From: a virus
Length of the DNA: 39,830 nt
Virus record (IMG/VR): IMGVR_UViG_3300048691_000157
Location: 1 to 39,830 of that record
Reading direction: 5' to 3' (one strand)
Position 1 is the stretch's first letter; the number at the start of each line of letters is the position of its first letter. Made by a program: the position numbers and the translations under genes. The notes beneath the pieces were generated by a model. That model saw only the letters and a list, made by a program, of their open reading frames with translations. It had not been told where the DNA came from and searched no databases. Shown in pieces: positions 3,648 through 39,830 of this stretch.

Positions 3648-3674
3648 TTGCAATAATTAAAATATCTGTATAAT
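3648..3674 (+). promoter_or_regulatory. Promoter of first HNH cassette
   Basis: TTGCAA at 3648..3653, 15-base spacer, TATAAT at 3669..3674. The other two HNH cassettes have the same 15-base spacing (6818 and 9254), suggesting the promoter belongs to the mobile cassette. Confidence 0.65.
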
Positions 3675-3680
3675 GTATGA

Positions 3681-3784
3681 GACTAAAGAGGTGGATTATT
3701 CCACGTTCCGACTTAATTTATAAGTCTCATACTTGCCAGTTCTCTTTAGTCGGAACAGCTGGCAGATATGAGATTTTTATTATT
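3681..3784 (+). promoter_or_regulatory. Pseudoknot-capable attenuator-like leader of HNH gene 1
   Basis: Segment a GACTAAAGAG (3681..3690), a small hairpin GTGGA-TTAT-TCCAC (3691..3704) and segment b GTTCCGACT (3705..3713) precede a stem TCTCATACTTGCCAG (3725..3739) / CTGGCAGATATGAGA (3759..3773). The loop of that stem, CTCTTTAGTCGGAAC (3742..3756), is perfectly complementary to b followed by a, which share GACT. A U-tract follows, then the ATG at 3785. The stem plus U-tract resembles an intrinsic terminator, so pairing of its loop could switch expression of the HNH gene. Confidence 0.65.
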
Positions 3785-4321
3785 ATGGAGGAAATATGGA
3801 AAGATATACCTTGATGTGAGTGATTATATCAAGTTAGTAATTTATGAAAAATAAAAAGTTTAAAATTTTGAAGATGGAAGAATAAGGAAATAATAATGAG
3901 ACCACAGAATGATAGATGATATTTGAGTATTGCATTGAAAAATTCTATAAATAAGAAACAACAAAAAGTTCACAGAATTGTATTAGTAGCATTTGTATGA
4001 TTTTCAAATTTACCAGTAAATCATATCAATTGAATTAAAACAGATAATAGATTATGTAATCTTGAATACTGTACTAAAAGTGAAAATGAAAGACATAAAT
4101 ATCATATTTTAAATATTAAGCCATATTTAAAATGAAGAATATGAATTCTAAATCACAATAGTAAAAGAACATATCAATATAGTTTAGATTGAAATTTAAT
4201 AAAAGTATGGGATTCATTGGCAGATATAAATAGATCGTGTTGATATAATATTAGAAATATAAGCTCTTGTTGCTTATGAAAACAGAAAACAAGTATGGGT
4301 TTTATTTGGAAATACTCTTAA
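3785..4321 (+). CDS. HNH homing endonuclease with NUMOD4 domain
   Basis: A 178-aa protein. The N-terminus MEEIWKDIPGCEGLYQVSN is the NUMOD4 DNA-binding signature. It is followed by an HNH nuclease core (VNHINGIKTDNRLCNLEYCT, about residues 79-98) and a NUMOD1-like C-terminal part with SSCCLGKQKTSMGFIWKY. Twelve in-frame TGA codons occur, all at expected glycines (including KDIPG, SNLG and HING). Such proteins nick or cut DNA at a target site and spread their own gene. No intron or interrupted host gene is evident here, so it appears free-standing with its own promoter and leader. Paralogous in layout to the gene at 6944. Confidence 0.85.
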
Positions 4322-4331
4322 TTTAAAAAAT

Positions 4332-5777
4332 ATGATAGATAAAAATAGTTTAATTGAATTAGTAAATAATTATCACTGATCTAATAATATAGAGATAGAC
4401 TTTATTAAAAATAAAGTATCTTTAGATAATGATTTGAATGAAGTCGAGCATATACTTGACTTCATGTACTCAAACAAACATAAAAAACTTGAATGACTTT
4501 CGTACAAACTAATGCTTGCAAAGACTAAGAAATGGGATATTCAACTACAAAAGGTATCTATAAAGGATACTGAAGTAGAATGAGTAGACTATGAAGTACA
4601 TCTTGATTTTGAAGATGGTTTTAAAATAGTGAAACTCATATCAAAACAATGTTATGAAAGAGAATGAAAGATTATGTCGCATTGTGTAGGATCTTATTTT
4701 GGTCGTGACTCTATAATTTATTCACTTCGAGACTCAAAAAATAATCCTCATTGTACTATCGAGGATTGAAACCAAATAAAGTGAAAATGAAACGGAAGTA
4801 TAGATCCAAAATATGTAGACTACATTGTGAAGTTTCTAGAAAAAACTTGAATGACAGTTTGAGAAAATGAGATGAAGAATATTGGCTATGTGAATATAGG
4901 TAAATTAAAAGAGGACTTGGATATAGATTTTCACGATAGTACAAAAAACCTTTTATATAAAGATATGTACTATCCAACTAATAAAGGTATAGAAAATCTC
5001 TTAGATTCTGAATGAAATGAGATTAAAAACCTTGCATTGCTTGACTACTTCCCTATGTTAAAGGAAGAAGAAAAAGAGAATCAATGGTCATTAAAACTTG
5101 CTATAGATATTAAATGACTTGCAATTGGTTTTGTAGAGTTTATGAAAAAAACAAAAAGTAAGTGAGTAACTGAAAAAGATAATTGTTATACAGGTGGTGA
5201 CTATGCACAGATGATTGGTGGTTACTCTGCAAAGATGAGTGGTGGTGACTATGCACAGATGAGTGGTGGTTACTCTGCACAGATGAGTGGTGGTGACTAT
5301 GCACAGATGAGTGGTGGTGACTATGCACAGATGAGTGGTGGTGACTATGCACAGATGATTGGTGGTTACTCTGCACAGATGAGTGGTGGTTACTCTGCAA
5401 AGATGAGTGGTGGTTACTCTGCACAGATGAGTGGTGGTTACTCTGCAAAGATGAGTGGTGGTGACTATGCACAGATGAGTGGTGGTTACTCTGCAAAGAT
5501 GAGTGGTGGTGACTATGCAAAGATGAGTGGTGGTTACTCTGCACAGATGAGTGGTGGTTACTCTGCAAAGATGAGTGGGTGAGAACACTCTATGATAATG
5601 GCAAGTACAGATTCAAAAATACAATGAAAACTATGATCTCTAATTGTAATTGCAAATAGAGAATATAATTATCCTTATGCTATAAAAGAATATAAGGCTT
5701 CAATAATTGACTGAGAAATTCTAAAAGAAAATACCTGGTATACCCTCAAAAATTGAGAATTTACTATTACTAACTAA
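4332..5777 (+). CDS. PcfJ-like protein with 16 tandem octapeptide repeats
   Basis: A 481-aa protein. The N-terminal half contains the PcfJ-like signature: an EGKIMSHCVGSYF motif (His near residue 117), then IYSLRDSKNNPHCTIE and QIKGKGNG, then YVDYIVKFLE. Residues about 288-415 are 16 repeats of eight residues, GG(DYA/YSA)(Q/K)M(S/I). The C-terminal domain (KLGSLIVIANREYNYP, then WYTLKNGEFTIT) resembles the end domain that follows similar repeats in other phage proteins. About 17 glycines are TGA, yet every glycine inside the repeat is GGT. PcfJ-like proteins are widespread in phages and conjugative elements, but their biochemical role is not established. It lies 10 bases after the HNH gene. 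Confidence 0.75.
5193..5576 (+). repeat. Tandem repeat, 16 units of 24 bp
   Basis: 384 bases made of 16 in-frame 24-bp units (consensus ggtggtgactatgcacagatgagt / ...tactctgca..., written here by positions 5193..5576) inside the PcfJ-like gene. Two unit types (GGDYAQMS and GGYSA[K/Q]MS) are interspersed, and two units end MI. There are no spacers, so it is not CRISPR. Confidence 0.95.
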
Positions 5778-6817: not shown

Positions 6818-6844
6818 TTGATTTTATAAAAATATCAGTATAAT
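6818..6844 (+). promoter_or_regulatory. Promoter of second HNH cassette
   Basis: TTGATT at 6818..6823, 15-base spacer, TATAAT at 6839..6844. The spacer end ATATCAG closely resembles ATATCTG in the first cassette. Confidence 0.6.
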
Positions 6845-6849
6845 AAATC

Positions 6850-6943
6850 TGCTATAACATTAAAGAGAGATTTGCCATTAAGGGCATTTACTCGGGGTTG
6901 TTATAGCAAATCTCCGCCCCGAGTAAGTGTCTTTTTTATTATT
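6850..6943 (+). promoter_or_regulatory. Pseudoknot-capable attenuator-like leader of HNH gene 2
   Basis: Same plan as the leader at 3681 with unrelated sequence. Segment a TGCTATAAC (6850..6858), segment b GAGATTTGC (6867..6875), stem TTACTCGGGG (6888..6897) / CCCCGAGTAA (6917..6926). The loop GTTATAGCAAATCTC (6900..6914) is complementary to b plus a, which overlap by TGC. A T-tract (6932..6937) separates it from the ATG at 6944. Confidence 0.65.
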
Positions 6944-7528
6944 ATGATAGATGTAAATAAATGGTTAGATATTCCGTGATACGAGTCAATATATCAAATT
7001 CTTATTTCTGAAAATAAAGTAAAGAGTTTGAAATTTTGAAAAGTTAAAATATTGAAAGTTGCTAAATGAATATGATGACATTTATATTTTTGAGTAAAAG
7101 AAAATTTTAGACATAAAAATATGTATCTTCATAGATTGGTTATGCTTATAAAAGAATGACCTTGTCCTGAATGAATGGAGGTATGTCATAATGACTGAAA
7201 TCCTGCAAATAATCATCCTGATAATCTTAGGTATTGAACCAGAAGTGATAACGTGCAAGATTCCATAAAACATTGAACTTTTCATAAATTTGATAATCCA
7301 ATGAAGTGAAAGTTCTATTGAGAAAATCCAAGGTCATTAAAAATAAATCAATATTCATTAAGTTGAGAGTTTATAAAAGAATGGGATTGTATCAAATCAT
7401 TCTTAAATACAATTGGGAAAGAAAATAGTTCAAGTATTTCTTATTGCTGTAAATGAAAACATAAAACAGCGTATTGATTTATTTGGAAATATAAAAACAA
7501 AATCGAACTGAGCGATTCTCAGGGTTAA
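6944..7528 (+). CDS. HNH homing endonuclease with NUMOD4 domain
   Basis: A 194-aa protein with NUMOD4 start (NKWLDIPGYESIYQI), an HNH core MEVCHNDGNPANNHPDNLRY (about residues 78-97) and a C-terminal NUMOD1-like repeat region (INQYSLSGEFIKEW, then YCCKGKHKTAYGFIWKY). About 16 in-frame TGA codons, one of the highest densities in the genome, all at plausible glycines. Same domain order as the gene at 3785 but diverged, so the two are not a recent duplication. Expressed from its own promoter and leader. Confidence 0.87.
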
Positions 7529-9172: not shown

Positions 9173-9300
9173 AACGAGGAAATACAGTAAGGAAAATAAC
9201 TTTAGCTACAAAAAGTTTAGTGTATGATCGTGATGGGTGAAAGTGTATTTTACTTGCAAAAATAAATAAATTCGTATTATGATCATATCAAACAGCTTAA
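9145..9300 (+). pseudogene. Truncated HNH-like ORF interrupted by third HNH cassette
   Basis: The ORF overlaps the end of the methyltransferase by 28 bases and encodes LFPKPTKVKRGNTVRKI, then VYDRDGGKCIL. That string resembles the N-terminal part of phage HNH proteins, where a CxxC zinc motif should follow. Instead the frame runs into the promoter and leader of the next HNH gene and ends after 51 residues. The break coincides with the promoter at 9254, so it looks like a gene cut by cassette insertion. Confidence 0.5.
9254..9280 (+). promoter_or_regulatory. Promoter of third HNH cassette
   Basis: TTGCAA at 9254..9259, 15-base spacer, TATTAT at 9275..9280. It lies inside the 3' end of the truncated ORF. 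Confidence 0.55.
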
Positions 9301-9384
9301 TTAGTGATCATTTTATATTCCATTGTTCTCGGTAGGTGCTGTTTGATCACTTGCCTATCGAGATCAGTGGATTATTTTTTATTT
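9287..9384 (+). promoter_or_regulatory. Pseudoknot-capable attenuator-like leader of HNH gene 3
   Basis: Third instance of the same fold plan. Segment a ATCAAACAGC (9287..9296), segment b AGTGATCA (9303..9310), stem TCTCGGTAGG (9327..9336) / CCTATCGAGA (9354..9363, one G-U pair). The loop GCTGTTTGATCACT (9338..9351) is complementary to b plus a, which overlap by ATCA. A T-tract (9375..9380) lies 5 bases before the ATG at 9385. Confidence 0.65.
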
Positions 9385-10074
9385 ATGATTAAAAAATGTT
9401 GTATCTGTAATGAAGATTTTGTACTTAAAACACATAATCAAATAACTTGTTCAAAAGAATGTGCAAAAAGTAAAGATAAGGAATTTAAAGAAGAAAAATT
9501 GAAAGATCCTGAATATAGAAAGATATTCTATGAAAAAAAGAAAGCTAGTGCAATAAAAGATTATCAAAAACATAAAGAAAGATGTATTTTAAATGCTAAA
9601 AAACTTAGATATATAAATAATTGTAAGGAATGTTGAAAAGAATTTCAGGCATACTCTAAAACTCTTTTACTTTGTTCAAAAGAATGTCAAAGTATTTGAT
9701 TAAAAAGAGATAGAATATGAGAAAATAATCCAGCATATAGAAATTGATCTTATACAAAAGAAAGTAATAAATTGATTCATCAAAAATGAAATTCAAAATT
9801 TCAAAGAATGTGCAGTATTATGAATAATGAAATGGTAGAAAAATATTGATATAGATTTTGTGAGTATTGCTGAATAAATCAATCTATTCGTTGGGAGCAT
9901 CATCATATTGTTTTTAGAAGTGAAAAGCCTTGACATGAATTTTTACACGATAAATTAAATACAATTCATTTATGTATAAAATGTCATAATGAATTCCATA
10001 AGAATAAATCAAAAAGAGATTCATTAATGAAAGATAGATGACTTGATAAAATATTTTGAATTTTTGTTGAATAA
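9385..10074 (+). CDS. HNH endonuclease with zinc-finger-like motifs
   Basis: A 229-aa protein, distinct from the two NUMOD4-type enzymes. The N-terminal part has CCICNEDF and CSKEC pairs, repeated as CKECGKEF and CSKEC (about 80-105), i.e. two zinc-ribbon-like units. The C-terminal HNH core is RWEHHHIVFRSEKPG, then LNTIHLCIKCHNEFHKNK. The enzyme type is typical of free-standing phage homing endonucleases. About ten TGA glycines. Its cassette appears to have inserted into another ORF (9145..9300). Confidence 0.82.
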
Positions 10075-38956: not shown

Positions 38957-39175
38957 ATGACAACACTTCCAAAGATATATTTACTTACGAGAGATCGAGC
39001 ATTAGAGATCATGTGGTATATGGATTTTATATATGATGAGTTCTGAACTCTCCAATATTCTGATGTATCGGATAAGGTAACGCAGAAAGAATGGATGATA
39101 ACTCAGATGTACTTTAACAACTGATATACTGCGGATCACGTCATATCACAACTGAAAAGTAAGTATATATTTTAA
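38957..39175 (+). CDS. Hypothetical protein upstream of replication gene, 72 aa
   Basis: A 72-aa protein with two TGA glycines (YDEFGTLQY, YFNNGYTADHVISQLKSKY). The C-terminal part looks like a small HTH (YTADHVISQLK). It is 23 bases upstream of the replication gene copy at 39199 and probably co-transcribed with it. Its last codons and stop are also present at bases 1..5. Confidence 0.55.
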
Positions 39176-39198
39176 AATACATTAACAAATAGAATAAT

Positions 39199-39813
39199 AT
39201 GCTTACTCCAAAGATGACATCATACGATACAAAGCTGATTCCTGCTATGTATGCAGATGGATGGATACTTGTAGCTATATACGATAATAAGATCTTTTGG
39301 CATAAGGAAGAACGAAAGCAAAGAATAAAGAAAGACATAGACCTATCAGACTTTGAAGCCTTCTATAAGAAGTATCCAAATAAGAAGAGTAGAAAAGATG
39401 CAGAGATCATGTGGGCTCGATTATCCTTAGACGAACAGAACTTAGCTATTATATGAATCGATCGATACCTTATATGGTGGAAGAAGAAGTGAACTGAGAA
39501 AGAACACATGCCACACCCTGCTACATGGCTGAATGGTAAAAGATGGGAAGATGACCTATCGGATCAAGTGAACATAATAAGAACTGAATGAGAGAAAAAA
39601 TCTATCGAACGTGTGAAGGAGGAAGAGGCTATCGACCGAGAGAAAGAAATAATGAATGATAGAATCTATAGAATAAAACAGAATCCTGTAGAATGGGCAA
39701 AGCTCGAAGAACTCGCCAAGAGCCAACTCACGGAAGAACAACGTCACTCTACAGCTTATACTATACTTTTAGAGTTTAAGATACGATCCATTGTAAAAAC
39801 CTATAACCAATAA
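39199..39813 (+). CDS. Second copy of replisome organiser-like gene
   Basis: 204 codons, the counterpart of 29..643 with about 25 substitutions, most at third codon positions; amino-acid changes are few (for example FETF to FEAF and AKVEE to AKLEE). The pattern of purifying selection shows both versions encode a working protein. Because the copies sit at contig ends they most likely represent two strain alleles of one locus, not a duplicated gene. Confidence 0.7.
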
Positions 39814-39816
39814 ATT

Positions 39817-39830
39817 ATGACAGAACTAGA
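39817..39830 (+). CDS. Partial start of basic 120-aa protein (second copy)
   Basis: ATGACAGAACTAGA is the same as the start of the gene at 647; the window ends here, so only the first codons are present. Confidence 0.6.

Follow-up and report, generated by a model that had tools for sequence, protein, structure and literature searches.

The window, meaning the whole stretch of DNA analysed here, is a complete IMG/VR record of 39,830 bases. Only in genetic code 25, in which TGA encodes glycine, do its genes stay open throughout, with an open-frame coverage of 0.87 versus 0.40 in table 11. Its ends (1-660 and 39171-39830) share a 660-nt repeat that carries 24 mismatches (96.4% identity) and is thus not an identical terminal repeat; each end contains a replication-initiation-like ORF. 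A PcfJ-like protein is encoded at 4332-5777; near 5190-5600 its gene carries many short repeats in tandem (SGGDYAQM / SGGYSAKM). Scanning the window for the leader described below, gene-blind and with 8-nt seeds, returned exactly three sites on the plus strand (3681, 6850 and 9287) and none on the minus strand of the 39.8 kb, against a chance expectation of 0.075 sites per genome (mean of 40 dinucleotide shuffles). All three sites directly precede an HNH gene (Table 1). The HNH endonuclease domain, the mark of free-standing HNH homing endonuclease genes and often accompanied in them by NUMOD4, was recognised by Pfam in the genes behind copies 1 and 2 and solely by PHROG 1271 in the gene behind copy 3. 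The loop sequences of the three copies are unrelated to one another. A search for an empty allele, with baits that included the PcfJ-like gene, yielded no relative that spans this early region; Erf as bait recovered no code-25 phage, and a host-genome scan using the terminase was a dead end.

Copy 1 (3681-3784) begins with two short segments, a and b, followed by the 5' arm (c) of a terminator-like hairpin, a loop comprising a' and b', the 3' arm (c'), a T tract and the ATG of the endonuclease gene. The loop, CTCTTTAGTCGGAAC, matches exactly the reverse complement of b fused to a, the two sharing a 4-nt overlap, GACT. These elements lie where the first-pass annotation had placed them, and it correctly gave their order in this copy as a b c a' b' c'. 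The same annotation spoke of a "triple-helix" leader; the arrangement is one of three crossing helices instead, with no evidence for a three-stranded helix. We also observed that GTATGAGACT (3675-3684) is exactly complementary to AGTCTCATAC (3723-3732) in the lower terminator arm of copy 1, a pairing that only read-through transcripts could fully use, as the first 6 nt of GTATGAGACT precede the predicted transcription start.

Table 1. Leader elements and downstream genes in the window.
Feature	Position	Strand	Basis or remark
Copy 1, -10 box TATAAT	3669-3674	+	Sequence; predicted transcription start 3681
Copy 1, segment a, GACTAAAGAG, predicted RNA 5' end	3681-3690	+	Exact complement of 3742-3751
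Copy 1, small hairpin GTGG-ATTATT-CCAC between a and b, in this copy only	3691-3704	+	Sequence, folding
Copy 1, segment b, GTTCCGACT	3705-3713	+	Exact complement of 3748-3756
Copy 1, terminator-like hairpin, 5' arm c	3719-3741	+	Sequence scan, folding
Copy 1, loop a'b', CTCTTTAGTCGGAAC	3742-3756	+	Sequence
Copy 1, 3' arm c', includes T5 run 3774-3778	3757-3779	+	Sequence
NUMOD4-HNH_3 endonuclease gene, ATG at 3785	3785-4321	+	Code 25
Copy 2, -10 box TATAAT	6839-6844	+	Sequence
Copy 2, leader	about 6850-6934	+	a 6851-6859, b 6867-6875, c 6880-6897, loop 6899-6914, c' 6917-6934
HNH_3 endonuclease gene	6944-7528	+	Pfam
Copy 3, -10 box TATTAT	9275-9280	+	Sequence
Copy 3, leader	9287-9375	+	a 9287-9296, b 9303-9310, c 9314-9337, loop 9338-9351, c' 9352-9375
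HNH gene, other family (PHROG 1271)	9385-10074	+	PHROG match

Both of the two HNH genes in G003, a phage whose terminase is about 70% identical to that of the window, carry such a leader. More code-25 phages were gathered through HNH motif patterns with TGA read as glycine, and a controlled test was applied to genes with at least 70 nt upstream, each scored for a hairpin close to its start codon with a loop that can pair to RNA further upstream. At a score of 27 or more, 19 of 25 HNH genes in code-25 phages were positive compared with 8 of 216 other genes, and 1 of 482 shuffled upstream regions reached this score; the 19 include window copy 3, which the seed search had placed among the "other" genes. 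In table-11 phages the counts were 7 of 52 HNH genes and 3 of 304 other genes, with none of 712 shuffles positive. Fisher's test gave p = 4e-17 and p = 8e-5, respectively, but the true significance is below these values because some loci are related and p was not corrected for relatedness. Sampling was biased to NUMOD4/HNH_3 relatives, the gene finder was crude with start codons picked by motif, and the "other" genes include a few real-looking leaders, such as those of a DnaD-like gene (L176) and a TnpB-like gene (L173). About a quarter of the code-25 HNH genes with a leader-sized gap have no leader, and a sample of 16 HNH genes of cultured phages, most of them located within operons, showed none.

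The leaders had been expected to occur in phages of code-25 hosts and to be tied to mobile HNH genes. Confinement to code 25 is contradicted by four table-11 phages (L008, L032, L058 and L073), whose HNH genes have strong, alignable leaders with the same pairing of 5' end and terminator loop through a 5' segment of 11-12 nt; a family restricted to code 25 is thereby refuted. A stricter scanner for the two-segment form had found nothing directly before these table-11 HNH genes in the first scan because they have one segment. The enrichment upholds a recurrent phage leader RNA associated with HNH genes, and an exclusive association fails, since one leader (L176 11204-11298, minus strand) lies ahead of a DnaD-like replication gene instead of an HNH gene. 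The TnpB/OrfB-like gene at L173 3184 has a pseudoknot-like leader. A scan match at L169 14404 (score 28.6) was AT-rich with no HNH gene behind it and was not counted. Elsewhere, an intergenic site upstream of a small terminase-like gene (L014 680-795) follows the a/b/c plan; its overlap is 6 nt and its 10-bp stem is perfect, and it lacks a T tract. The HNH genes of L023, L035 and L055 share another recurrent upstream leader, which looks like a separate RNA motif: it contains a GATAGGGTAGCTCC-like stretch, and the loop of its hairpin is able to pair with sequence downstream.

The leaders fall into several kinds. Type I, the subtype of the window, consists of a, a short spacer (TTAAA in most), b, the stem and the loop; in all eight type I leaders measured, the loop is fully covered by a and b jointly, with 2-5 nt shared between them. 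In G027 the order is again a b c a' b' c' but the segments do not overlap, and L185 and one leader in G031, judged by eye from their sequences, look similar. Type II has a single segment, a small conserved hairpin, the stem and the loop (L201, G029, two in G031, and G032; the leader before the DnaD-like gene is of this type), and type III is the table-11 group, also with a single segment. In L099, L057 and L072 the loop of a hairpin seems, from the sequence, to pair with the terminator loop. The double segment with overlap is a trait of type I (eight leaders measured) and does not extend to the plan in general: with types that lack b, a two-segment switch is not general.

Pairing is maintained while the leader sequence varies. 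In the type II alignment of only five sequences, 95.9% of cells were paired and 9 pairs had changed on both sides; values as high occurred in 0 of 500 shuffles on four of five measures, and controls with slid partners gave at most 2 double-changed pairs. Type III, with only four sequences, had a loop helix 93.6% paired with 5 double-changed pairs and a whole-structure covariation score reached by 0 of 500 shuffles, though its long stem aligned poorly (67.8% paired). The two leaders of L190, 86% identical, differ at two positions of the 5' segment, both matched by changes in the loop. Related leaders with compensatory changes thus exist elsewhere, the absence of which the first-pass annotation had named as grounds for abandoning its proposal. 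Leaders also appear to have been exchanged between HNH genes, since those of L201 and G029 are 94% identical and the HNH proteins behind them 34% identical.

The position of the 5'-most segment was examined relative to the -10 box, which played no part in finding the leaders. Segment a starts exactly 6 nt past the box in all three window copies. The best TATAAT match starts 11-13 nt ahead of the 5'-most segment in most HNH leaders for which that segment was scored, namely the three window copies, G003a, G026, G027, G030, the plus-strand leader of L180, both L190 leaders, L008, L017, L032, L058 and L073; the match is 6/6 in most of these and 5/6 and not unique in window copy 3, G030 and the L180 leader. 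For other genes the best position was scattered. In leaders scored on b, the box was about 13 nt further upstream, matching expectation. Given this spacing, segment a is predicted to form the 5' end of the RNA.

A stable hairpin followed immediately by a U run is the signature of an intrinsic (Rho-independent) terminator, and most leaders have both. The hairpins have energies of -16 to -28 kcal/mol, most stems end in 4-8 T just ahead of the start codon, and a run of at least four T at the 3' base of the stem is present in 17 of the 19 code-25 HNH leaders listed. This anatomy is attenuator-like, in line with the earlier suggestion, and from it we infer that the hairpin would end transcription. 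When the RNA was folded only up to the end of the loop, before c', nine of ten type I-like leaders had their 5' end paired to the loop in the lowest-energy structure; adding c' made the terminator the lowest nested fold in 10 of 10, all energies being from nested folds that ignore pseudoknots. No ATG reading frame is conserved among the leaders between the start and the stem, which argues against ribosome-mediated attenuation; a ribosome-sensing leader peptide was rejected on this ground.

Rough distances were used to ask which pairings could coexist. A 15-bp span measures about 45 Å and the 5-nt a-b linker reaches at most about 38 Å, so a and b cannot both pair fully with the loop; complete simultaneous pairing over 14-16 bp was rejected for this reason. 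Segment b is 3-8 nt from stems of at least 11 bp, which makes b-loop pairing hard to combine with the full terminator, the longest gaps being marginal. The exclusion is stronger in type III, where the single segment is 3-6 nt from a stem of 20-22 bp. With the overlap of a' and b' and the short linkers, the terminator and antiterminator pairings are likely to be mutually exclusive on these rough distances, and the shared overlap in every type I leader measured agrees with the earlier view of a and b as competitors.

The leader structure and its linkage to HNH genes are well supported, and the plan probably represents a genuine switch of selfish HNH genes that has yet to be named; its direction and signal we infer. 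We give about even credence to attenuation during transcription, with RNA from upstream taking hold of the terminator loop and, in type I, with a and b in competition. Such a cis-acting element of about 75-105 nt would hold its HNH gene mostly off. Transcription would begin at segment a and then meet the intrinsic terminator, with the start codon following closely on its U tract. The terminator loop would exit the polymerase before the 3' arm is made and would then be open to capture by upstream RNA, for which two segments would compete in type I. Capture by b, adjacent to the stem, would form an antiterminator; a, at the 5' end, would reach over a longer linker and could in principle coexist with the terminator, and by taking the shared overlap from b it would again favour termination. 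The single stem-adjacent segment of type III would itself be the loop-capturing antiterminator. This role for the stem-adjacent segment is proposed from the rough distance exclusions, and the roles of a and b could be reversed. Something would have to shift the balance, such as polymerase speed, a phage or host factor, or another RNA. With somewhat less confidence, short of an even chance, we suggest that these leaders form an unnamed, sequence-variable RNA class that spans two genetic codes and phages with unrelated bacterial hosts. The 5' end of such an RNA would capture the terminator loop of an HNH gene, an overlapping segment would add a strand-exchange switch, and the module would be swapped between HNH genes.

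The leader might act instead on translation or mRNA stability, with the pseudoknot protecting the 5' end or fixing the start region and the T tract merely unstructured. Start-site RNA hairpins do control T4 homing endonucleases (PMC2988022), and the table-11 leader L017, read by eye, pairs a loop with a Shine-Dalgarno-like site. However, the start codon in the code-25 leaders is unpaired and downstream of a hairpin that in most cases runs into the T tract, and we consider an effect at this level unlikely. A slightly smaller probability attaches to the terminated leader being a stable, trans-acting small RNA, in which case the low readthrough into the HNH gene would be incidental. The promoter-like box, terminator and compact fold would suit such an RNA, as would loops that differ between copies in one phage, as for RNAs avoiding cross-reaction; yet the leader is always placed at the start codon of a gene, its sequence varies fast, and searching the phage genome for further good matches to the three window loops gave none above the chance level, so that no trans target within it stood out. 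It is improbable that the hairpin only insulates the gene against read-through from upstream phage genes, with the pseudoknot merely stabilising it and no switch involved, for although the hairpins are strong and T4 mobE and segF have intrinsic terminators at their 5' ends (PMC2988022), a plain terminator needs no covarying loop partner, no partner exactly at the predicted start and no a/b overlap.

A loop-capturing attenuator conserved in its pairing and not in its sequence would escape sequence searches, and it would also be missed by ordinary covariance models, as these do not accommodate pseudoknots. Phages commonly carry homing endonucleases as selfish genes, and to our knowledge the restraint of their cost is known mainly from T4-like phages. 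A simple search rule, which looks closely ahead of start codons for a terminator with a loop complementary to the transcript's 5' end, makes the extent to which phages place RNA-folding gates on selfish genes directly testable.

The first-pass annotation knew of no described RNA class with this plan, and our searches agree: Rfam 15 gave no match in the window or the leader-bearing loci searched, with weak matches far below the curated cut-off, and no description of the plan was found in the literature searched, in which subscription journals were thinly covered, so an earlier description is possible. Several known systems share parts of it. As in riboswitch and T-box attenuators, a terminator precedes the start codon and mutually exclusive pairings share nucleotides, but here the loop is captured, whereas there it is a terminator arm. 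The capturing partner is moreover the 5' end of the same transcript, and no conserved aptamer sequence is seen. H-type pseudoknots and kissing loops likewise pair a hairpin loop with outside RNA, and L099, L057 and L072 look loop-to-loop, but the hairpin here is a terminator and type I has two overlapping segments per loop. The omega RNA of IscB (HEARO) is also a structured RNA immediately 5' of an HNH protein gene; it was ruled out by the lack of an Rfam match and by the proteins, which match NUMOD4/HNH families and no RNA-guided nuclease family. The leaders would fall within a known kind, attenuators and the RNA control of phage homing endonucleases, and are not claimed as categorically new.

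The T4-like phages provide the nearest biological precedent. According to the published account (PMC2988022), their homing endonucleases I-TevI, mobE and segB are restrained by start-site RNA hairpins, mobE and segF have intrinsic terminators at the 5' end of the gene, a hairpin of seg43(25) is another such RNA control, and repression of I-TevI depends on the position of the transcription start. In both cases an RNA structure or terminator near the start limits, or in our leaders would limit, expression of the endonuclease. The T4-type hairpins mask the ribosome binding site, and where a terminator is used it sits within the 5' end of the coding region (PMC2988022); in the window copies the start region lies downstream of the stem, which does not fit a hairpin that sequesters the ribosome binding site. 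Hosts and proteins differ, and the passages of the T4 account consulted describe no upstream segment that pairs with a terminator loop (PMC2988022). The RNA plan of the HNH leaders is thus different from that of their closest precedent.
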